A DNA stretch of 64,000 nucleotides, taken from the NCBI GenBank assembly GCA_022482625.1, contig JAKVOU010000001.1, positions 868,001 through 932,000 of the forward strand, written 5' to 3'. The notes below the pieces were generated by a model that was not told the DNA's origin, searched no databases, and saw nothing but the letters and a program-made list of their open reading frames with translations. Origin of the DNA: Spirochaetia bacterium (lineage in GTDB: Bacteria; Spirochaetota; Spirochaetia; Sphaerochaetales; Sphaerochaetaceae). The translations under genes were made by a program, and so were the position numbers. Below, piece after piece: positions 20,881 to 61,045 of this stretch (positions within the stretch are counted from its first letter, which is position 1; each line of letters opens with the position of its first letter).

Positions 20881-21510
20881 ATGAACCAAGGCTACCAAGT
20901 AATTGATATGAACAATTGGAAACGAGCAATGCACTGCCAGATATTCAGGAATTGCATCGAACCGTCGTATTGCGTTACCTTTGAATTGGATATTACGAAT
21001 TTTCTTAAAAAAATAAGGGAAAAAGGATATTCATTTACACCAGCCTTTGTATTCACCGTCTCAGCATGCGCAAACAGAATTGAAGAATTCCGCTATCGTT
21101 TCCTGGATGGGCAAGTCGTGCTCTATGACAGGATCAACACAGCTTTTATGTATCTAAACAAAGAAACCGAACTTTTCAAAGTAATCAGAGTAGAAATGCA
21201 AGATACCTTGGCACAATATGTCATCGCTGCAACCAAGAAAATAAAAGAACAGAAAGAATACTTTACAGATCCCCTGGGAAATGATGTATTTCAGTTTTCT
21301 TCTTTGCCTTGGGTATCATATACACATATTTCACATACGAATTCCGGGAAAAAAGATAATGCTACGCCCCTATTCGATTGGGGAAAATATTTTCAAAGAG
21401 ACGGGAAATGGGTCTTGCCTTTTTCTGTACAGGTCCATCATTCTTTCGTAGATGGTATCCATATAGGGAAATTGGCAGATTCATTGCAAAAAAGCCTGGA
21501 TATACTTTGA
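20881..21510 (+). CDS. Chloramphenicol acetyltransferase-like (CatA fold) protein
   Basis: 209 residues, normal for type-A CAT monomers. The catalytic HHxxxDG motif is intact (VQVHHSFVDGIHIG near residue 188), and the usual DMNNWKRAMHCQIF start and PWVSYTHISH substrate strand are present. Many chromosomal members have unknown substrates, so resistance to chloramphenicol is not certain. The ribosome-binding site is AAAGGA, about ten bases upstream. Alone between a broken toxin gene and a convergent reductase gene. Confidence 0.85.
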   Translation: MNQGYQVIDMNNWKRAMHCQIFRNCIEPSYCVTFELDITNFLKKIREKGYSFTPAFVFTVSACANRIEEFRYRFLDGQVVLYDRINTAFMYLNKETELFKVIRVEMQDTLAQYVIAATKKIKEQKEYFTDPLGNDVFQFSSLPWVSYTHISHTNSGKKDNATPLFDWGKYFQRDGKWVLPFSVQVHHSFVDGIHIGKLADSLQKSLDIL

Positions 21511-24024: not shown

Positions 24025-25023
24025 TTACAACCACTCATTTTTTTGTTTGGACTTTTGCTCTAGGAACTTTATGCTTTCAAGATAGTCTTTTTCTACACTG
24101 CTGAGTGTCTTCGCCTGATATTTCTTATATTCTGTTTCAGCTTTATTCATCGCCTGAAAGTGACTGATTGTTCCATTGCCAGTCAATAGATTTTCTCCGG
24201 TGGATGTCAAAATACCATCCAAATGCTTTGACCAGTCTTCCATTTTCATAGGAATTTCTCTTTCAGCCTGTCTCTGGGCAAAATCCAGATACCCAGAAAC
24301 AAGTTGCCCCATTGCTCGCAGTTCTTTTTCATTCAGATAGTTCTTGGCAGTTTTTGCCTCACGCAATGTCGGTTGCGTTCCTGAAAAAGTCATCAAGCCC
24401 ATGTAATCTTTTTCAGCATCTGCACGATGGTAAATGACTTCAGCTGCTGTCTCACCAGAAATGGCATAATGGATTTTATTCTGAACCTTTTTGAAAAACT
24501 GAATGGAGACATCAGCCTTCGGATTGTAATCAATACTTGTAGCATAAATTTCAAGCACCTGGCGATAGAACACTTTCTCTGATGCCCGAATGTCTCGAAT
24601 TCTTTCCAGAAGTTCTTTGAAATATCCTCCACCGCCTAATTTCTTCAGGCGGTCATCGTCCATTGCAAAACCCTTTTTTATGTATTCTTTCAGGACACCT
24701 GTTGCCCAGATACGAAACTGTACACCTCGCTGTGATTTCACACGGTATCCCACGGAAATAATTACATCAAGATTGTAGAAATCCACCTGATATGTTTTTC
24801 CGTCAGAAGCAGTGTAGGCAAATTTTGCCCACACTGAATTTTTGTCCAGTTCTCCTTCCTTGAATATATTTCTCACATGCTTTCCGATAACACTTTTATC
24901 ACGTTGAAACAATTCAGCCATCTGATCCAGGGAAAGCCATACAGTTTCATTCTGCATATTAACATCTATTTTTGTCAGACCATCTTCTGTTTGGTATATT
25001 ACGATTTCTCCGTGATTGTCCAT
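24025..25023 (-). CDS. RhuM-family protein
   Basis: 332 residues. The N-terminal part (VWLSLDQMAELFQRDKSVIGKHVRNIF, ASDGKTYQVDFYNLDVIISVGYRV, GVQFRIWATGVLKEYIKKGFAMDD) is the conserved RhuM core, a DNA-binding-like domain; the C-terminal half is helical with the HFQAMNKAETEYKKYQ region. RhuM was named from a Salmonella pathogenicity island gene, but most copies lie on genomic islands and near restriction/defence genes, and the molecular role is unknown. ATG at 25023 has GGGGGAAG upstream. Here it stands at the left side of the AT-rich accessory stretch. Confidence 0.85.
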   Translation of the reverse strand: MDNHGEIVIYQTEDGLTKIDVNMQNETVWLSLDQMAELFQRDKSVIGKHVRNIFKEGELDKNSVWAKFAYTASDGKTYQVDFYNLDVIISVGYRVKSQRGVQFRIWATGVLKEYIKKGFAMDDDRLKKLGGGGYFKELLERIRDIRASEKVFYRQVLEIYATSIDYNPKADVSIQFFKKVQNKIHYAISGETAAEVIYHRADAEKDYMGLMTFSGTQPTLREAKTAKNYLNEKELRAMGQLVSGYLDFAQRQAEREIPMKMEDWSKHLDGILTSTGENLLTGNGTISHFQAMNKAETEYKKYQAKTLSSVEKDYLESIKFLEQKSKQKNEWL

Positions 25024-25873
25024 TGCAGCTTCCCCCAATCCGTTTATCTCTCCTTCATAATAACATAATTTTTAGTCAAAGTTGTTTACAGTATAAAACT
25101 TGTGTATATTAAAACAGATAAATATCGTTTTCCCTTATCTGTATTCATTTCACCCAATCAAAACACTTCTATTTTCGGGTCATTTTTTGATATTGGCTAA
25201 TTTCTAATTTGTGTAGTACAGAGCTGCTATGCTTTGTTCAAAAGTGTAAATGACAAAAATTTGTCTGCCCTAATCCAGCTATTCTTTACTGACATAACTA
25301 AACAATCCAGTATCAAGGAATATACTATAACTATGTTGCAAATGACTTTTCTACAAGACATATAATCAAATCTTAATTTATTTTGTCTACAATAAACCTG
25401 TACTTACTCAAAAATCAGCTTTCCCAAAAACTTAACAACAAGAGTTTTCTCTTCATTCTGACTATTTCATCAAGGGATTTGTTAACAGACGCTGCTTAGG
25501 ATAAAAAGCACGCGTGTTACTAAAGGACAAATACAACATGATATTCGTCAGAAACGAATATACGGGAGAACTTAGTCATAGGCTCAGGCAAGGACATATG
25601 AAATGAAGAAGACTTGCACACCACCAGTCAAATTCGCACTTCCCTCAACAAGGAACTTCAGATGGTGTCCAAACATAATTTGTAAGCTTGTTTTCTTCTT
25701 TATGACGATACTTCTCATCAAAAAGCAGAAGACAAACCCCAAGAAGCTGAAGCTTCAGGAACTTCCTTTGTGTAATAAGACTTAATCAAGGAATAGGACA
25801 GAACAGTGGCCGTATCGGGTGAAACACTGCTAACTCTATCAAAGTTTGTAATAATCCTTTCACTTTCTATGAT
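25024..25873. other. AT-rich stretch, no clear gene
   Basis: About 850 bases with many stops in all frames. A short readable stretch on the plus strand near 25620-25785 has coding-like composition, but it contains stops and matches nothing I recognise. Probably decayed accessory DNA. Confidence 0.45.
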
Positions 25874-27304: not shown

Positions 27305-27736
27305 CTAATTTATAAGTTGATTTTCTGCAGTACTTATGAGTAATTGGATATGTGAAATAAAATCACCATAATGCGTATTTGTTTCACCATCTTTTAAAAG
27401 AATTCTCTCATTATCAGGTTTCAAGACAATCTCTTTATAACTATTTTCCATAGCATCAGAAATCTGATTAAGCATCTTTTTTTTACAAAGAAATTGTTTC
27501 CCCTCATGTTTGAGAAAATTTTTTTCTCTTTCAAATACAAATTGAAAAGTATAATGATTTGCTTTACAAGGTTTACTTACCATCTCACCAATCTCTGAAT
27601 AAAACGAAGCAAAGCGACAAAAAATATTTTCCCGTGCCAGATGCCATTCCTGCCGCCTCAAATGCAGCAAGGAAAATAAGTAGACAATAACAGCGCCTAT
27701 GAATCCAGAAAGTAAATTAATCGCTACTTCCCTCAT
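27305..27736 (-). CDS. Membrane-anchored protein of the GHKL/STAS-like module
   Basis: 143 residues: one N-terminal transmembrane helix (about 5-24, LLSGFIGAVIVYLFSLL) and a charged, mainly helical cytoplasmic part. Unknown family. Its ATG overlaps the stop of the DUF4325 gene (ATGA), so it is translationally coupled to it and is the third gene of the module. The tight coupling suggests it anchors or senses for the two soluble partners; this is inference. Confidence 0.7.
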   Translation of the reverse strand: MREVAINLLSGFIGAVIVYLFSLLHLRRQEWHLARENIFCRFASFYSEIGEMVSKPCKANHYTFQFVFEREKNFLKHEGKQFLCKKKMLNQISDAMENSYKEIVLKPDNERILLKDGETNTHYGDFISHIQLLISTAENQLIN

Positions 27737-28071
27737 TTTTTTCTTTCAACCCTCATAGCCTCTTTTATATAATCAGTAACATCTTTTTCCCAAGACACAG
27801 GAATATGCACAAACTTAAGATTCGCAATTTGTTCTCCAAGACCATCTCGAACAGCTCCACCAAACGCCTCCTCCAAAAAGGAAGGGGAAAACATCTTTGT
27901 ACCTCCAAAATCAATGGTAATTTCTTCGTCATTTTTTACTTTTTTTAGCCATGGTTCTAAAATATTCTTACGAAATTCTTCTCCTGAATTTGGACCAAGA
28001 TCTTTAAAACGTGGCCCTTGATAGACATAATTAGGAGCTACTTCAGAAATCTTTAATATATTTTCTTTCAT
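27733..28071 (-). CDS. STAS-like DUF4325 protein
   Basis: 112 residues. The core EEITIDFGGTKMFSPSFLEEAFGGAVRDGLG is the DUF4325 pattern, a STAS-like fold related to anti-anti-sigma proteins. In STAS partner-switching systems a small STAS protein is a substrate or binding partner of a GHKL ATPase, and such an ATPase gene lies just upstream. GAGGT lies ten bases before the ATG. Second gene of the three-gene minus-strand module. Confidence 0.82.
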   Translation of the reverse strand: MKENILKISEVAPNYVYQGPRFKDLGPNSGEEFRKNILEPWLKKVKNDEEITIDFGGTKMFSPSFLEEAFGGAVRDGLGEQIANLKFVHIPVSWEKDVTDYIKEAMRVERKK

Positions 28072-28079
28072 AGTAATTA

Positions 28080-28623
28080 CTACCTCTTGGATTTATTTAT
28101 AATATAGGAAATTGGAATAGAAAAATCAATGATTGATCCTTGAATGCATGTTTCTCTATCAGGCTTAGCCTCATCTATAACTCTGTCATTCTCTATACCT
28201 GCACGATACCATCCCCTCCCACTCATTATACCAATAGTTCCATCAACATCCTTTAAGGACTGGGTTGCTTTGGGCAACCCCAAACCTCTTCCTATAGTTT
28301 CTCCATTAACAATGCCCGATCGTCCTCCTGCTGCTAATTGAATAAGTTGAGAATCAGATGTTACTTGGTCCTTTATGGCTGAAAAAAATTGTTTTTTCTT
28401 TAAACTTTCTCTAAAACCTATCCCTTTATCGCAAACACAAAATTGATATTTATCATCTAGTGGATATAATCCAAATCCCAAATACCATTTTGTAAATTTA
28501 GCATCTTCATCATATGCATGCTCTCGACAGTTAAACAAAGCTTCAGAGATAGCAGTTGCAATAAGACTATTTTCGCCTTCATTTGAAAAAGATAAACATT
28601 TAGGAAGAATATCCTCCATTAAA
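28080..28623 (-). pseudogene. GHKL ATPase gene, 3' part separated by IS insertion
   Basis: Encodes the histidine-kinase-like ATPase domain: N-box ATAISEALFNCREHAYDED, G1 box CDKGIGF and G2 box GRGLGLPKA are all present and look active. An ATG right at the insertion edge (28619) with AAGG supplied by the IS end could allow a 179-residue ATPase-only protein. Deleting the IS and one TTAAA copy fuses it in frame with the 5' part to a 345-residue protein. The DUF4325 gene follows nine bases after its stop. Confidence 0.85.
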
Positions 28624-28653
28624 CCTTAGCTTCCACGAATTTTGACACTAAAA
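28624..28653 (+). repeat. Left terminal inverted repeat of the IS
   Basis: CCTTAGCTTCC then ACGAATTTTGACACTAAAA; matches the reverse complement of the right end with a few differences. Confidence 0.85.
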
Positions 28654-28670
28654 GTCGGAAACACTCCGGC

Positions 28671-28883
28671 TTATAGCTTGATCAGACGCATCACCTCTTC
28701 CATGGTCTTGCCGCTTTTGTCGATGGCTTCGAGAAGCTTGGCGACCTGCATCTCGCGACGTTTGTCTTGCAGATCCTTCAATTCCTTGAGGGCCTCGTCG
28801 TACCGGTTCTTCAACCTTCTGGCTTTCTCCTCCGCCTTCAGGATCTTGCCGTTCAGGCTTTCCATGCTGCTTGCTCTTGCCAT
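28671..28883 (-). CDS. Small coiled-coil protein carried by the IS
   Basis: 70 residues, almost entirely one charged helix with heptad-like spacing (LKAEEKARRLKNRYDEALKE). It overlaps the transposase stop by 31 bases in another frame and ends 47 bases inside the left end of the element. Unknown function; perhaps an accessory to transposition or a passenger. Confidence 0.6.
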   Translation of the reverse strand: MARASSMESLNGKILKAEEKARRLKNRYDEALKELKDLQDKRREMQVAKLLEAIDKSGKTMEEVMRLIKL

Positions 28884-30667
28884 TGGCGTTCCTCCTCGTC
28901 CTCGACCGTCGTGTCATTCCGGATGTCGTCATCGGGAGCCCCGTTTCTGATGTCTGCCGTGTCGATGGCGGCCAGATGCTTGGAGAGATCCATGCAGGCA
29001 CTTCTCATATCATCGGCACTCAGTCCGAAGACCGAGAGTATTTCCTTCTGCCTGGCGGTAATGGCATGGTCCAGACGGTATATGCCGTCGCCGATCCTGA
29101 TCAACTCGATCTTCTCGAGCTCGGTGATGACCGAAACGACATTCAGGTAGTTGCGTTTCCTCCCGGTTGCCTGCACATGATCGCAGATACAGGCGTGGAA
29201 CCGGCTGCGGACAATCAGGGCGAAGAACTCGATGAAAAGCCTTGAGCGGAGGGAGGCTTCGGACTGTACCCGTTCGGCCCTGCTTCCTATGAAGGTCTTG
29301 TCGGCTGCAAACAGCTTTTCGGAGCTATCCCGGGCCTTGTACAGGAGCAAGGCCTCCCGTGCACTCATTCTGTCGGACGATATGATGCAGAAGTATCCGC
29401 ACAGGTCGATGAGCCGTTCGGTAACTTCCGTCCTCTCGCGGTACATGACCAGGGTCTTCCCCTCCCCGAAGAAGGTGAGCTCGAAGTCCTGGAACCGTTC
29501 CATGTCCAGCTCGGCACAATCCTTCCCGACGAGGGCATCCAATTCGCACGACAGCTTCCTCAGCAGCATCTCGATCTTCGCACGCTCGACCGAATGGCGG
29601 AACGGGGAATAGTAGATATGGAAGAAACGATTTTCCCTGTCCCCTTCGTAGAGCTTCGCCTCGACGGTGGTCCCGTTCACCGAGTATTCCCAGAGGTGGT
29701 TCGCCCGTATGTTCTCGAATGTCCCCTTCACTCCGAGGACAATGGAGGAGACCAGTTTCTTCCTCCCCTTTGCCATGATGATGAACGAGTAGCCGTAGCG
29801 GTCCAGGTACTCGATGTTGGCCTTGCTGAAATATCCCCGGTCGAGGATGAAGCCGAGGTTCCGGTAGCCGAGCCCCCTCGCCTTGTCGACCATGTGCACC
29901 AGCTGCGAGACATCGACGATGGAACCCGGGTAGTCCTCGTAGAAGAGCGGGAGCTTCTCCTTGACGTCCAGGGCCACCGACAGGCCGAAGATCGGCTCGC
30001 CGTTGATGCCGCTTTTCGAATGCCCTCCTTCAACCATGGCGATGTCCCCCGCCTGGCAGAGCTTGTTGGAGGAGTCGTAGGAGATGTACACCTTCTTCCG
30101 GTGGTCCTTGTCGCCGTTCCACCATTCGGTGAAGGCGATGGTGTCATCCCGGCCGATAGTCTCTCTCAGCAGGTGGCCGACCTTGCTGTCGCTGTAGATC
30201 CGCATCTCCGGGGTGAAGAGGGGATGGCCGTATGCATGATCGGGATAATGCTGTGCCGAATTCCGCCCGGAGACGAGGAGATAGACGGCAAGGTCCATGA
30301 CCAGCCCCCCATCCTTGCAGCCGAACCGGTCCTGCAACCACTGGAGCAGCCGGTGTTTCTCCAGTATCTTCCGTATCACCACATAGGTCCCGCACCGGAG
30401 GCAGCTGCTTCGCCCTCCCGTGTATTCGGGAACCTCCGCCGTCGTCGCATCCGGAAAGAACTCCCGGTACTTCTCGTTCGGGTACATCCGGGTGTCGTCT
30501 TTCGGGTCTTGCTTGCCTATGCATGCCCGCTTGGGTATCGTGTACTGCCTGTCCTTGTAGTAGATCCTGTCGTATTCGAAGTAGATGTAGAGGCTTCCGT
30601 CACGGCCTTTCTTACGGGTCATCTTGCCTTTCACATCGGGTATGGGTACGGTGAATTTCCGGTACAT
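28853..30667 (-). CDS. IS1634-family (IS4-like) DDE transposase
   Basis: 604 residues, full length. The N-terminal part has a Cys pair region (SSCLRCGTYVVIRKIL); the catalytic core shows FGLSVALDVKEKLPLFYEDYPG, ILDRGYFSKANIEYLDRYGY with the second Asp, and the C-terminal KARDSSEKLFAADKTF, which holds the final Glu of the DDE triad in the YREK-like motif. GC-rich codon use differs from neighbouring genes. Because of the high GC content, long open frames also appear on the opposite strand, but these are not genes. Confidence 0.92.
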   Translation of the reverse strand: MYRKFTVPIPDVKGKMTRKKGRDGSLYIYFEYDRIYYKDRQYTIPKRACIGKQDPKDDTRMYPNEKYREFFPDATTAEVPEYTGGRSSCLRCGTYVVIRKILEKHRLLQWLQDRFGCKDGGLVMDLAVYLLVSGRNSAQHYPDHAYGHPLFTPEMRIYSDSKVGHLLRETIGRDDTIAFTEWWNGDKDHRKKVYISYDSSNKLCQAGDIAMVEGGHSKSGINGEPIFGLSVALDVKEKLPLFYEDYPGSIVDVSQLVHMVDKARGLGYRNLGFILDRGYFSKANIEYLDRYGYSFIIMAKGRKKLVSSIVLGVKGTFENIRANHLWEYSVNGTTVEAKLYEGDRENRFFHIYYSPFRHSVERAKIEMLLRKLSCELDALVGKDCAELDMERFQDFELTFFGEGKTLVMYRERTEVTERLIDLCGYFCIISSDRMSAREALLLYKARDSSEKLFAADKTFIGSRAERVQSEASLRSRLFIEFFALIVRSRFHACICDHVQATGRKRNYLNVVSVITELEKIELIRIGDGIYRLDHAITARQKEILSVFGLSADDMRSACMDLSKHLAAIDTADIRNGAPDDDIRNDTTVEDEEERQWQEQAAWKA

Positions 30668-30800
30668 GGCAACCCCCTGTGTTTAGTGTTTCAATAACAC
30701 TAAAAATATACCACGATTAGGCTGAAACCGCAAGTGCTGTCGTAAGGAAATCTGTTGTTTTACAAGGAATTATCTACTCCATGTCGGACCGGAGAATCTT

Positions 30801-30830
30801 TTTAGTGTCAAAAATTGCGGGAAGCTAAGG
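30801..30830 (-). repeat. Right terminal inverted repeat of the IS
   Basis: Read on the minus strand: CCTTAGCTTCC then CGCAATTTTTGACACTAAAA. Pairs with the left end; followed outside by TTAAA, the target duplication. Confidence 0.85.
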
Positions 30831-31329
30831 TTAAAAGCAAAGGAATATTCTTCTCTGATTCTTTGTCAAAATCATATAATTGCCAGCAGGTCAAATCTCG
30901 ATATTTCTGGCATTTGACACCATACTCTCTAATTTTTAAGTATTGCAACACCGCTTGGGTTTTTTCATTTTTTGGTTTCTTAATCCAAGGTTTCCTTTTG
31001 TATGTAAACAAAAACTGATCATTAAAAGCTTTCAATGTCAAACCAGCGCGTAAAGAAATCGTTGTTACATTAGAAAAATCAAGAGAACAATTCGGAGTTC
31101 TTAATACATAATCAAGCTTTTCGATAAAATTCTTGGCAATTTTATCATCTGATAGAAAAAGCTTATCAGGTACAGAAACAAAAAAATCGGGCTTAATCCG
31201 CATTCGCTTTTTAAATTGACTATGTCGAATTTTCCATTTGATTACTTTTTCTTTCTGGGCAATTCGACATTGAGATGTATATTTTCTTTTATTTTTTCTT
31301 TCACAATAGACATTTCTTCCTAATGCCAT
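30831..31329 (-). pseudogene. GHKL ATPase gene, 5' part separated by IS insertion
   Basis: Encodes about 165 native residues, then runs a few codons into the IS. It starts with MALGRNVYCERKNKRKY, with an AGGGGTAGGT ribosome-binding site. It is basic at the N-terminus and then has a STAS-like pattern (LDFSNVTTISLRAGLTLKAF, AVLQYLKIREYGV), so the full protein would be STAS-like domain plus GHKL ATPase. The last native residues EKNIPLLL join in frame to MEDILPKCLSF of the 3' part after precise IS excision, giving 345 residues. Confidence 0.82.
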
Positions 31330-31650: not shown

Positions 31651-31930
31651 TTATTTCCCAATAAAAAAATTTGGAATATCCATTACTGATTGTACCCTGC
31701 AAATAATTTCTATGAAATGTAAAAGCTAACATGTTCTTATCAGCTTTGATAATCAATGAAGTAACAAATTTTCTATGTTTAGAAACATAGTTCATTAATA
31801 TTTAAAATCCATTGAATATGGTCAACGCATATCCACCGCAATAAAAATAACTATGCACTAATAAAAAAACTCCCAATCACCGTAGTAATCAGAAGAAAAA
31901 AAATTATCGAAATCTCTCAAAATTATAAAT

Positions 31931-32015
31931 TGCGGACGACTGGACTTGAACCAGCACAGCATTTCTGCCACTAGCACCTCAAGCTAGCGTGTCTACCAAA
32001 TTCCACCACGACCGC
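31931..32015 (-). tRNA. tRNA-Leu (anticodon GAG)
   Basis: 85-nt class II tRNA. Minus strand: acceptor GCGGTCG, D-arm with TTTGGTAGACAC, anticodon arm CTAGC-TTGAGGT-GCTAG giving GAG, long variable arm TGGCAGAAATGCTGT, T-arm GCTGG-TTCAAGT-CCAGT, acceptor CGTCCGC and discriminator A. CCA is not encoded. The acceptor has one U-U mismatch at the fifth pair. It marks the right edge of the AT-rich accessory stretch. Confidence 0.9.
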
Positions 32016-32262
32016 AGACAGTCCCATTCGGAACGATTGGAACAATACACGATGAACGGGCTAACGTCAAGATAGTATGGAGAAATATTGGAAAAATCTT
32101 AGGTTCTATAGGTATCTCTTTCGATTGTCTCTGATATTGGTTTCACCACCAGGATATCATATCCCCACTCTCTTCAGCACACGTAAGAAAACTTCATGGA
32201 AGTTATTGACATATGCCAATAATAAACCTATGATGATGCCATCATCACATAAGGAGTAACCT

Positions 32263-32625: not shown

Positions 32626-33456
32626 ATGCAGATAGCAGTACTCAGTGGCAAGGGAGGAACTGGAAAGACCTTTGTTTCAACCAACCTTGCAGCAGTCATT
32701 GAAAACTCGACTTATTTGGATTGCGACGTTGAAGAGCCTGACGGCAGATTGCTGTTGCACCCAGTCAGCATACAGACAGAAAAAGTAACAAAACCCATGC
32801 CTCAGGTCAATGCAGACAAATGCATAGGTTGCAGGGCTTGTGTGGATATCTGCAGATTCGGAGCATTGGCATTTCTTGGTGGGAAACCTATGGTATTCCC
32901 AGAAGTATGCCATAGCTGCGGAGGATGTACCCTTGTCTGTCCGACAAAGGCAATGGAAGCACATCCCCATGAAATCGGTACAATTGAAACTGGTACCTCA
33001 GGGAATATGGAAGTCGTAACAGGCATCCTGTCCATAGGAGAAGCTTCTGCCGTTCCCTTGATCAGCGCTGTCCTGAAAAAAGCAAAGGGAAATACCATTA
33101 TCGATTGCCCACCAGGAAGTGCCTGCAGTGTCATGGAATCCATCAAGGGAAGTGATTACTGTGTCATGGTTGCCGAGCCCACAATCTTCGGACTTCACAA
33201 TCTCAACATGGTATATACCTTGGTCAAGCTTTTCCACAAACCCTATGGAATCGTCATCAACAAATGTGAAGACGACTATAACCTGATCGATGACTTCTGT
33301 AAAAAAGAACACATTGAAGTATTGCTGAGAATTCCCTTTGACAAACAGACAGCACAGGATACAGCAAGAGGAAAGCTAGCTGTACGGCAAAATGCAGCAA
33401 TGAAGCAATCATTCATGTCCCTTGCAGACAAATTGAGAGAAAGGACAAAAAAGTGA
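32626..33456 (+). CDS. MinD-superfamily P-loop ATPase with 4Fe-4S ferredoxin domain, first copy
   Basis: 276 residues. The deviant Walker A reads LSGKGGTGKTFVSTNL. A two-cluster ferredoxin insert follows: CIGCRACVDIC and CHSCGGCTLVCP. Then the MinD fold continues with TIIDCPPGSACSV and the nucleotide-base segment VINKCEDD. Members are linked with iron-sulfur or metal-cofactor assembly. Coupled with the NifX-like gene upstream and a second paralogue downstream (GTGA overlap). No clear ribosome-binding site, so translation may depend on coupling. Confidence 0.9.
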   Translation: MQIAVLSGKGGTGKTFVSTNLAAVIENSTYLDCDVEEPDGRLLLHPVSIQTEKVTKPMPQVNADKCIGCRACVDICRFGALAFLGGKPMVFPEVCHSCGGCTLVCPTKAMEAHPHEIGTIETGTSGNMEVVTGILSIGEASAVPLISAVLKKAKGNTIIDCPPGSACSVMESIKGSDYCVMVAEPTIFGLHNLNMVYTLVKLFHKPYGIVINKCEDDYNLIDDFCKKEHIEVLLRIPFDKQTAQDTARGKLAVRQNAAMKQSFMSLADKLRERTKK

Positions 33457-34320
33457 AGAAGATATTGGTACTGTCAGGGAAAGGTGGCACAGGAAAGACA
33501 ACCATCACCTCTGCCCTGATTACCCTACTCTCTATCAAGGCCTATGCTGACTGTGATGTCGATGCACCAAACCTCCACCTTGTCTGTGATGACAATCATT
33601 GGGAGAAAAAAGACACTCCTTTCTTCGGTATGCCGATATCACAGATAGATACTGCAAGATGTACAGGCTGCGGGCGTTGCCTGCCAGTCTGTCGTTTCGA
33701 TGCAATAATCAAAAAGGGGAAATACATATTCCGTAGACCCATATGCCTGTGAAGGTTGCGGTGTCTGTCAGTATGTCTGTCCTGAAAAAGCAATCAGCGA
33801 TGTACAGAATCAAAGTGGTACCTGCAGTGTCCATAAAGGAAATGATACAATCTTTTCAACGGCACAGCTGACCATAGGCAGCGGCAACTCAGGAAAGCTC
33901 GTCTCGCAGGTAAAGAAAAACCTTGAAGATGCATGCCAAGACATCAGTTATGCCATCATCGATGGTTCCCCTGGCATCGGCTGTCCCGTCATAGCCTCAC
34001 TTTCAGGTGTAAATCTAGCACTATTGGTCACCGAGCCGACTGCAAGCGGATTAAGTGACTTGAAAAGAATCGTACATACAGCCAGAATCTTTTCCACATC
34101 CATGGCAGTCTGTATCAACAAATATGACTTGGACGATGAAGGTTGCAAGAGCATTGAAGCTTATTGCAGACAAGAAAAGCTCCCGTTGGTCGGTCATATC
34201 CCATATGACAGGGAAGTATCAAGAGCCATCAACAGAGGTGAAACCATAGCAAAAATCGATTGTCCCGCCAGGACTGCCATTGTAGAAATGGCAACAGAAC
34301 TACGGCCGTTATTACGATAG
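33453..34320 (+). pseudogene. MinD-superfamily 4Fe-4S ATPase, second copy, one frameshift
   Basis: Paralogue of the previous gene. GTG start overlaps its stop. LSGKGGTGKTTITSAL is Walker A; the first cluster motif CTGCGRCLPVC is in the first frame, then one extra C at 33731-33732 breaks the frame. Removing it joins KYIF to VDPYACEGCGVCQYVCP, the second cluster, and gives 288 residues ending at 34320 with IIDGSPGIGCPVIAS. The rest is undamaged. Two paralogues probably form a heterodimer working on the NifX-like partner. Confidence 0.85.
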
Positions 34321-58058: not shown

Positions 58059-59240
58059 TTACAACCCTGTAAACAGGAGTAAATCTTCCCTACCGCCGTT
58101 AACAACCAAATAGTTGTCTAAACCATAATACTCAGCATAACAGGAATCAAACTTGGCTGAGGTTGACGCATATAGGCTGTCAACGGTAATATCACCTCCG
58201 TCATTGGCGGGAATATCATCAGCAAGCCCTGTGAACGTCTTCCAATCCCAGCCGATTGCCTCATCCATGCTTCTGGTAAGGCATCCATGGGCAGGAGAGA
58301 TATCCGTATCATCACCTGCTCTATGGGTTGAATTCGTGGCTGTCATAACGTATACATCATCATATTGCGTTGCCGTTGCCGACGAAAACAATTTGTCCCA
58401 GATTGATGAGCCATCATACTCATCATTCTGGGTATTGGTCGTATAGGTGTCTTCATCAACAGCAACGCCACTGAAGCAACTGTCAAGGATAATGAATTTC
58501 TTACCTGGAATAGATGATATACAATTAAGCAAGTCGCTACATTTTAAAAAATTATCTCTATATGAGTATCTATAATGTTCTGTAACAGAAACAAACTCCT
58601 GACATAAACAAAGTGAACCATCATCAGTGCCATGTCCGCTATAGTAGAAAATGACCAAATCGTCATCAGTTACAGTAATAGGCGTGTCCGTACCAACAGG
58701 TGTAAGATCAAGGGGAAAATCATCCAAATCTTCTGATGCATCACCTACAACATAACAATACTGAGAAATATCCGTACTATTCGAAACATTATCAAGCTTT
58801 TCAAGATTTCTTAATAGATTTTTAACATGCTTCTTCGTAGGGCTCAAAGCATCATTAATAATTGAATCATGTATGCCATCTCCGATTCCTTCACTCGTTT
58901 CTTCCAAAGTTTTTTGGTTCATAGGAATTATATACAAGGGTGTATTGTTCTTCGAAGCCAAAGCAGAAAAAGAATGTGCCACGTCTGCAGCATCATTCAA
59001 TGGCCCTTCCAATGTTAGCCCATATTCCTCCACTCGTTGTGTGTTTAGATTACGAACAGGATAAACAATCTTATCATAATTCAGCGACACATCCACCAAC
59101 ACAATCTTTCCATAACCCTTATTTGTATCATGGGGAAGGATAAGGTCACAGGATGAAAGCATGAATACCAATATGGTAGCTAAGAATAACAGACAGTTGT
59201 TTGCTCCATGTTTCCTTTGACTTCGGTTATATCCATGCAT
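58059..59240 (-). CDS. Caspase-like (C14) lipoprotein
   Basis: 393 residues. N-terminal signal with lipobox MLSSC, so it is exported and lipid-anchored. The p20-like domain shows the catalytic His in VIFYYSGHGTDDGSL and Cys in KFIILDSCFSGVA, followed by VYVMTATNSTHRA. A long N-terminal part contains LNDAADVAHSFSAL, typical of bacterial metacaspases. Substrate is unknown; location suggests envelope or secreted protein processing. AGGGGA precedes the ATG by nine bases. Confidence 0.85.
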   Translation of the reverse strand: MHGYNRSQRKHGANNCLLFLATILVFMLSSCDLILPHDTNKGYGKIVLVDVSLNYDKIVYPVRNLNTQRVEEYGLTLEGPLNDAADVAHSFSALASKNNTPLYIIPMNQKTLEETSEGIGDGIHDSIINDALSPTKKHVKNLLRNLEKLDNVSNSTDISQYCYVVGDASEDLDDFPLDLTPVGTDTPITVTDDDLVIFYYSGHGTDDGSLCLCQEFVSVTEHYRYSYRDNFLKCSDLLNCISSIPGKKFIILDSCFSGVAVDEDTYTTNTQNDEYDGSSIWDKLFSSATATQYDDVYVMTATNSTHRAGDDTDISPAHGCLTRSMDEAIGWDWKTFTGLADDIPANDGGDITVDSLYASTSAKFDSCYAEYYGLDNYLVVNGGREDLLLFTGL

Positions 59241-59350: not shown

Positions 59351-60217
59351 TTATACCACAGTAAGCTTATCAATGATGGAAGTAAAGAATTCCTGCCCCC
59401 AAATTGAAAATTGATTTTGGTCTTTGACAAAAGGTCGGACATCTTCTACTGCCTGTTTGAAATCAACTTTCTCGAATTTCTCTCTAAGCATATGCTTCAG
59501 GTCCAATAGCCCAAAACTGTCTTTCCAATCTAGCTGTCCGGTTTGGATAAGACGGCACTGAAGATGAAAAAGATTTACTGGAATCCCTTGTGAAAGGTAC
59601 CAAATGAAATCATAGTAATCACGACCTTTTACTCGATTTTGCCATCCTCGGCACAAAAGAGCATGTATTTTTCCTGCAAACAGTGACGGAGCATCATACA
59701 GACATACAGAATGTGATGAAGGCAGAAGTGTATATTTGTTTTCATAGGAAGCACCGTCTGGAGGATCTGTGTCTATTTCAAATTTAATTTTCAATTTCTC
59801 ATTTGGAGCAATTCCTGAAATAGGAACCTCAGAAGGTATAATGTTAAGAATCTGTATCGAGGTAGTACCTTTGATAAAAGCAGAAGTAACTGCAGAAGAT
59901 TTAGTTTTCTGTTTTGATTCCACAGTCATTGTGAATCCATTGGCAGTAAGTTCATCTTCTATGGAAGAAAAATAACGAGTCAAATCAAACGTACCGTCAG
60001 ATTTCTTAAGTGAAAAATCCAAATCTTCTGAAAAACGATCCAGTCCATAAAAAATCCGCAATGCTGAGCCACCATAAAAAGCTGATCCATCAAAAAAATC
60101 TGTCCTACTTAACCCACACAAAGCTATTTCTTGGATAATTTCCTTCAAGGCATTACGATAATCAACAACATCCTTGCACTTATATTTCTTCAGCATTGTT
60201 GCTACAGCACTGGTCAT
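59351..60217 (-). CDS. AbiEii/AbiGii-type nucleotidyltransferase toxin
   Basis: 288 residues. GGSALRIFYGLDRFSEDLDFSL carries the nucleotidyltransferase GGS and D-x-D motifs of AbiEii toxins, which target tRNA or related substrates and stop growth. The segment RVKGRDYYDFIWYLSQG is the usual C-terminal motif. Start ATG 60217 follows the antitoxin stop by one base, with AAGGAG inside the antitoxin end. Complete and intact second gene of a type IV-like toxin-antitoxin pair. Confidence 0.88.
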   Translation of the reverse strand: MTSAVATMLKKYKCKDVVDYRNALKEIIQEIALCGLSRTDFFDGSAFYGGSALRIFYGLDRFSEDLDFSLKKSDGTFDLTRYFSSIEDELTANGFTMTVESKQKTKSSAVTSAFIKGTTSIQILNIIPSEVPISGIAPNEKLKIKFEIDTDPPDGASYENKYTLLPSSHSVCLYDAPSLFAGKIHALLCRGWQNRVKGRDYYDFIWYLSQGIPVNLFHLQCRLIQTGQLDWKDSFGLLDLKHMLREKFEKVDFKQAVEDVRPFVKDQNQFSIWGQEFFTSIIDKLTVV

Positions 60218-60218
60218 A

Positions 60219-60809
60219 TCAACTCTTTTCTCCTTCTTCAAGCAATTTCAAGAAAAGCATCAAGTTTCTCTTCCGATATCTGGGAGCCAAAAAATCAACA
60301 TCTTTCCTGTTCAATGAAAGCACATTTTCTGGTTCCATACGCCAAGATATAAATAAAAGCGTCCTTAATTGTGCAACAGTCTGTACAGGCTGACTTTTAT
60401 ATAACATATCACAGAGTGCTTTTTCTGGCGTAGCCATTTGCCAGCTATAGCTGCCCCCTTCCAATATGGTAACATCACAAGGAAAAACAGTTTCAGGAAT
60501 TGTACGATAGATGAATGTTCCAAATGGAGTCTGATAAGTCTTTATCTTGTTTTTCCTAAACACTGCCGAAGTGTATACATCTACACGCTCAGGGATAAGT
60601 CCATACCAAGCAAGTGCATATTCAAACGAAAGATAGGAGGGCCCGTAGATTGCAGATGCAAGGGCATAAGGAGGAGCATCCTTGTCAGTTTCAAAGAGAC
60701 CCCGCCGAATTTGTACCAAATCCCCATGTTTGACCATCTGTGTCATTTTTGATTTCGGCGATTTGTAATCTTTTAATGAAGCTCTTATAATCCGTGTATC
60801 CTGTAACAT
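60219..60809 (-). CDS. AbiEi-type antitoxin
   Basis: 196 residues, first gene of the pair. The N-terminal wing HTH (MTQMVKHGDLVQIRRGLFET) and LASAIYGPSYLSFEYALAWYGLIPE match AbiEi/DUF6088-like antitoxins that bind promoter DNA and neutralise AbiEii without direct contact. Start ATG 60809 with GGAG seven bases upstream. Operon order antitoxin then toxin is the normal AbiE layout. Confidence 0.85.
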   Translation of the reverse strand: MLQDTRIIRASLKDYKSPKSKMTQMVKHGDLVQIRRGLFETDKDAPPYALASAIYGPSYLSFEYALAWYGLIPERVDVYTSAVFRKNKIKTYQTPFGTFIYRTIPETVFPCDVTILEGGSYSWQMATPEKALCDMLYKSQPVQTVAQLRTLLFISWRMEPENVLSLNRKDVDFLAPRYRKRNLMLFLKLLEEGEKS

Positions 60810-61045
60810 TTTTTCTCCAGCAAGTATGATTATATCGTACTTTCTGGAGAAAATCAATTAAAGCATAAGGCAGAATCATTGAACAGCTATAATTGGGTAA
60901 ACAAAAACCACAATTCTGCCATTGCTACTTCCTCCTTGAAATATGAGACTTGCAAGCCCCTATTGGAATTGCCAGCAAAGCCTCCGTGAGACTTTCACTC
61001 AAACTTGATAATACATATCTATACCCCTCATAAGAATAAGACAAA
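60810..61045. other. Short intergenic stretch, promoter side of AbiE pair
   Basis: About 235 bases without a gene; should hold the AbiE promoter. No clear operator repeat seen. Confidence 0.3.

Follow-up and report, generated by a model that had tools for sequence, protein, structure and literature searches.

The only closely similar system described, VapKSC, appeared in 2026: when its STAS antitoxin is phosphorylated by the STAS-GHKL kinase, the VapC nuclease is freed (PMC13373217, EMBO J 2026). The operon protects E. coli against a phage, and ssDNA was proposed as the signal. In the CapK-CapS pair, CapK carries an N-terminal HTH and CapS a DNA-binding C-terminal wHTH (PMC13373217); the text of this paper contains neither a transmembrane variant nor DUF4325. 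Here we analysed a stretch of 64,000 nucleotides from a Spirochaetia genome (the window), in which an insertion sequence interrupts the first gene of a three-gene cassette. The insertion event itself is an ordinary IS knockout and, taken alone, a routine one; its interest lies in the strictly conserved cassette to which it points. As a whole, the locus is likely to hold the split kinase gene of a cassette resembling a toxin switch, with the module turned off.

The nature of the kinase was derived from its homologues, all of which (41 of 41 tested) match PHROG 3364, an entry that gives no function. One homologue (L042) was modelled with 60 sequences at a mean pLDDT of 86.5. In this predicted structure the C-terminal domain was nearest to SpoIIAB (Z 13.2, 2.6 A over 129 residues), followed by RsbW and UsfX; CheA and histidine kinases ranked lower. 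The model shows the SpoIIAB/RsbW serine-kinase fold for this close homologue, and the same fold is predicted for the intact window kinase. The N-terminal domain resembles STAS weakly (Foldseek E 0.2; Pfam recognised STAS in 1 member out of 41) and, combined with the SpoIIAB-like C-terminal fold, points to a STAS-GHKL protein of the kind found among partner-switching serine kinases. The N-terminus of the family is basic, with a median of +12 in the first 40 residues versus +1.4 per 40 residues elsewhere, which would suit nucleic-acid sensing.

The two other cassette genes of the window are intact and lie on the minus strand. The second (27733-28071) encodes a DUF4325 STAS-like protein of 112 aa (PF14213, 48 bits, cut-off 23), predicted to be the antitoxin and the target of the kinase. 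The column aligned to S48 of VapS holds S or T in 145 of 159 relatives; the window protein has P at this acceptor column and Ser on both sides of it, which makes the substrate role less certain in the window's clade. The third gene (27305-27736) encodes a protein of 143 aa, the predicted effector, for which AlphaFold2 (pLDDT 91) gave a long N-terminal helix, taken as a membrane helix, and then a helical bundle. This fold had no significant match in PDB (best E 0.41) or BFVD (best E 0.075). A hydrophobic segment, usually N-terminal, was present in 139 of 154 third ORFs, compared with a control fraction of 0.41. The order kinase, DUF4325, third gene was kept in all 56 evaluable loci of a separate kinase-centred scan.

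Copies of the cassette occur on plasmids, temperate phages and islands; the contigs that carry one, from phages, plasmids and bacteria, run into the hundreds. Francisella phage KIRK carries one, with all three genes listed as hypothetical (PMC7924643). No function is given for the cassette in PHROG, Pfam or PADLOC, and the PADLOC defence models returned no credible match. Among the 139 genomes of the window's bacterial family the cassette is rare and is therefore accessory DNA; in the window it sits in a stretch of 34% G+C beside a tRNA-Leu gene (31930-32016). The A+T-rich accessory stretch ends at this tRNA-Leu, but we found no attachment-site repeat there and no integrase. The same stretch also holds a RhuM-family protein (24025-25038, minus strand, Pfam E 1.3e-104).

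The insertion sequence (28624-30830, minus strand) is 2207 bp long and is flanked by TTAAA on the left (28619-28623) and on the right (30831-30835). The duplication is exactly 5 bp, as neither 4 bp nor 6 bp match. Its terminal inverted repeats are imperfect, with 29 identical positions across a gapped alignment of 33 columns; in an ungapped comparison the first 18 bases agree at 15 positions, a level that 20,000 random pairs drawn from the window never reached. Length, terminal repeats of about 30 bp and the flanking TTAAA had all been proposed from the letters of the sequence, and coordinates and alignment agree with each of them. Assignment to IS1634 held as well: the intact transposase of 604 aa (28853-30667, minus strand; Pfam DDE_Tnp_1) scored 188 bits against NCBIfam IS1634 (NF033559), for which the cut-off is 100.

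Elements of the IS1634 family make AT-rich duplications of 5-6 bp, end in C-----YT and measure 1500-2000 bp (PMC2266710). The window element resembles them in its DDE transposase, its AT-rich duplication of 5 bp, its imperfect inverted repeats and its ends, which both read CCTTAGCT and fit C-----YT. It differs in being slightly longer than 1500-2000 bp, a size that is typical and not defining, and in belonging to a subgroup with a second conserved ORF. This coiled-coil-like ORF of 70 aa lies at the 3' end of the element (28671-28883, minus strand) and was found by tblastn at full length in five related elements (L004, L006, L007, L018, L032) and in part in two others (L003, L008). Its conservation points to an accessory gene carried by this IS1634 subgroup, and the extra ORF accounts in part for the excess length. 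The terminal repeats of related IS1634 elements, sought for a comparison of target sites, were not recovered by a simple search. The G+C content is 56% in the element, 33% in the host gene and 43% in the window. The genome has a single copy of this exact element, and its other IS1634-type transposases are only about 28% identical to that of the element; there is therefore no sibling copy by which the insertion could be dated. The sequence-only reading had called the insertion recent, and the perfect 5-bp duplication and intact ORFs are compatible with a recent event, which stays plausible only, since a single copy gives no date.

Together, the element and the two gene parts span 28080-31329. 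In the window's genome the kinase profile was matched at positions 14-183 before the element and at 180-358 after it. The 5' half (30808-31329, minus strand) comprises the basic N-terminus and the STAS-like domain; its ORF stops within the element, from which its seven terminal residues (TLASRNF) derive. The 3' half (28080-28619, minus strand) comprises the GHKL domain, in which the N box (SEALFNCREHAY), the G1 box (DKGIGF) and the G2 box (GRGLG) are all intact. Removal of the element and one TTAAA, already predicted to restore the frame, joins 28080-28623 to 30836-31329 and gives 1038 nt, that is 345 codons and a stop with no internal stop, reading ...EKNIPLLL-MEDILPK... at the junction. The gene had been read as that of a GHKL ATPase; the GHKL domain was recognised correctly, but the reading overlooked the conserved three-gene cassette in which this gene supplies the kinase and the two downstream genes are intact.

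The restored frame could be a coincidence if the STAS and ATPase parts were natively two genes between which the element had landed, and in the present sequence each half does have its own start codon and stop. We therefore turn to the relatives, found with a profile of the DUF4325 gene in 355 bacterial-genome stretches and 202 viral contigs; the 80 best from each set were kept (160 loci). In 146 of these 160 loci the DUF4325-linked kinase gene is one full-length uninterrupted frame, and the halves were seen as separate native genes at none of them. The joined window protein is 31-37% identical to its six nearest relatives (L039-L043, L046) over about 290-340 residues, and these align across the junction without a gap (ESEKNIPLLL-MEDILPK versus KTEVEFSKLL-ATKIIPE and similar). 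One of them, L046, is the contig of a genome of the same family (G110) that carries the kinase gene intact and uninterrupted. The undivided gene that the sequence-only reading had told its readers to look for thus exists in relatives, and the separate genes without the IS that would have spoken against it were not found. Apart from the window's own genome, none of 100 near genomes has the gene, and no allelic empty site was found because the three genus mates and almost all of the 139 family genomes lack the cassette. The single frames and the ungapped junction argue for a single ancestral gene that was cut at a point between the two domains, and two native genes with the element between them were rejected on the same grounds; that reading has next to no probability left. 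By comparison of sequences, an IS1634-family element almost certainly split one ancestral gene.

As the sequence and the relatives show, the element transposed into the first cassette gene, duplicating TTAAA, and parted a STAS-like and a GHKL kinase domain that had belonged to a single protein. By analogy with VapKSC, a stress signal such as ssDNA would activate the intact kinase, the activated kinase would phosphorylate the DUF4325 STAS protein, and phosphorylation would free the membrane-anchored third protein, which may then damage or arrest the cell. We put forward this toxin-release mechanism tentatively, at a little short of even chances. Under the VapKSC model, the loss of the kinase trigger with the DUF4325 and third genes intact would leave the module locked off: most likely the insertion silences it, with the trigger gone and the predicted effector and antitoxin kept. 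Loss of kinase function we consider likely. The split might instead be neutral or regulatory, if read-through from the transposase yielded cooperating STAS and GHKL fragments, or if precise excision were frequent enough to preserve the switch. The transposase and the host gene do share an orientation (both on the minus strand), the element end is without a strong terminator and has one weak 5-pair stem only, the catalytic motifs are all intact, and an ATG stands directly behind the element at the start of the 3' half, in the order AAGG-TTTA-ATG. From this AAGG it had been suggested that the ATPase domain alone might still be made. The site is present, but as a ribosome site it is weak: its pairing with the 16S tail is worth -3.5 kcal/mol at a spacing of 3-4 nt, and of the 28 starts in the window taken as reference just 36% pair more weakly. 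Separate translation of the ATPase half is at best a possibility. As regards excision, the 5-bp duplication offers only a short homology for slippage, and the titles and abstracts of the few papers retrieved on IS1634 and precise excision gave no clear lead. Both halves of the kinase could still be translated and associate, but a neutral or regulatory split is improbable. For the cassette itself, a role as partner-switching regulator of phage or plasmid genes, in lysogeny control or superinfection exclusion, would make the third protein a membrane sensor instead of an effector, which it could be. Several copies adjoin phage repressor genes (L026, L030 and that of Francisella phage KIRK); against this, plasmid copies adjoin toxin-antitoxin genes (L025, L027, L029), and relatives of the kinase pair act in immune modules. 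We regard such a regulator as rather unlikely, and retain the silenced toxin-switch-like module as the preferred reading.

Kinase genes were broken in other copies as well. On Acinetobacter wuhouensis plasmid p2_010060 (L028, 692-3008) the kinase is broken by the IS3-like element ISAba14, while the DUF4325 gene and the third gene are intact. As there is no clean duplication at ISAba14 and the N-box region of the kinase is lost, this is not a precise insertion. Kinase genes spread over two frames stand beside intact DUF4325 genes in L121/L253, L162/L252 and L098, whereas near-identical contigs (L122, L123, L164-L166) have intact kinases. The kinase was the sole cassette gene with clear breaks (in the window, L028, L098, L121 and L162). 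We considered this bias as evidence for a toxin-antitoxin system and discarded it as not significant, because the kinase accounts for over half of the cassette and one scan of the two is biased towards intact DUF4325 genes.

Several other genes of the window were recorded. A second MinD/NifH-like ferredoxin ATPase gene (33453-34320, plus strand) is in pieces, with ORFs at 33453-33752 and 34024-34320; the homologous genes of genus mates (L037, L038) are free of stops. A protein of the chloramphenicol acetyltransferase family (Pfam CAT, E 5.5e-43) is encoded at 20881-21510 on the plus strand. On the minus strand, two adjacent ORFs of 296 and 212 aa (59351-60857) are, by eye, candidates for an AbiE-type nucleotidyltransferase toxin and its antitoxin, and a lipoprotein-like ORF of 393 aa (58059-59240) is, by eye, a candidate caspase-type peptidase.

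Compared with the known systems, the window cassette shares with SpoIIAB-SpoIIAA and RsbW-RsbV the pairing of a GHKL serine-kinase fold with a STAS protein; unlike them, its kinase has a STAS-like domain and a basic N-terminus of its own, and the cassette is without a sigma factor gene. As in CapK-CapS, a STAS-GHKL kinase is followed by a STAS protein as its substrate, here a predicted one, and the genes are linked to immune loci; in contrast to that pair, Pfam detected no HTH in the window kinase or in the DUF4325 protein, and with only 112 aa the latter has no room for a C-terminal wHTH. VapKSC comes closest. Like VapKSC, the cassette is a three-gene operon that starts with a STAS-GHKL kinase without HTH, continues with a small STAS protein, in most relatives with S or T in the region of the acceptor, and ends with a small third protein, and many copies lie close to other immune genes. 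The STAS protein of VapKSC (PDB 9z7o) is a weak sequence relative of DUF4325 (E 0.13). The differences are that the second protein belongs to DUF4325, that the window kinase is split, and that the third protein is membrane-anchored and helical and is no PIN nuclease: a PIN match was sought in 40 third proteins and found in none. The window cassette lacks a VapC and is therefore not VapKSC, but by analogy it may work like it. Within the open-licence literature of PubMed Central, it looks like an apparently undescribed membrane-anchored relative of VapKSC. Going further, we raise as a possibility, held with less than even confidence, that the CapKS/VapKSC phospho-switches have a third branch, widespread and undescribed, to which the cassette belongs and in which sensing of damage or infection would free a membrane effector in place of a nuclease. 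The IS insertion of the window, the IS-broken kinase of Acinetobacter and the frameshifted kinases of phage contigs would then be natural alleles that turn the switch off but keep the antitoxin. Should the membrane protein prove to be the effector, one phospho-switch would control transcription, an RNase and a membrane effector, and the window would hold a natural allele from which the trigger alone has been removed.
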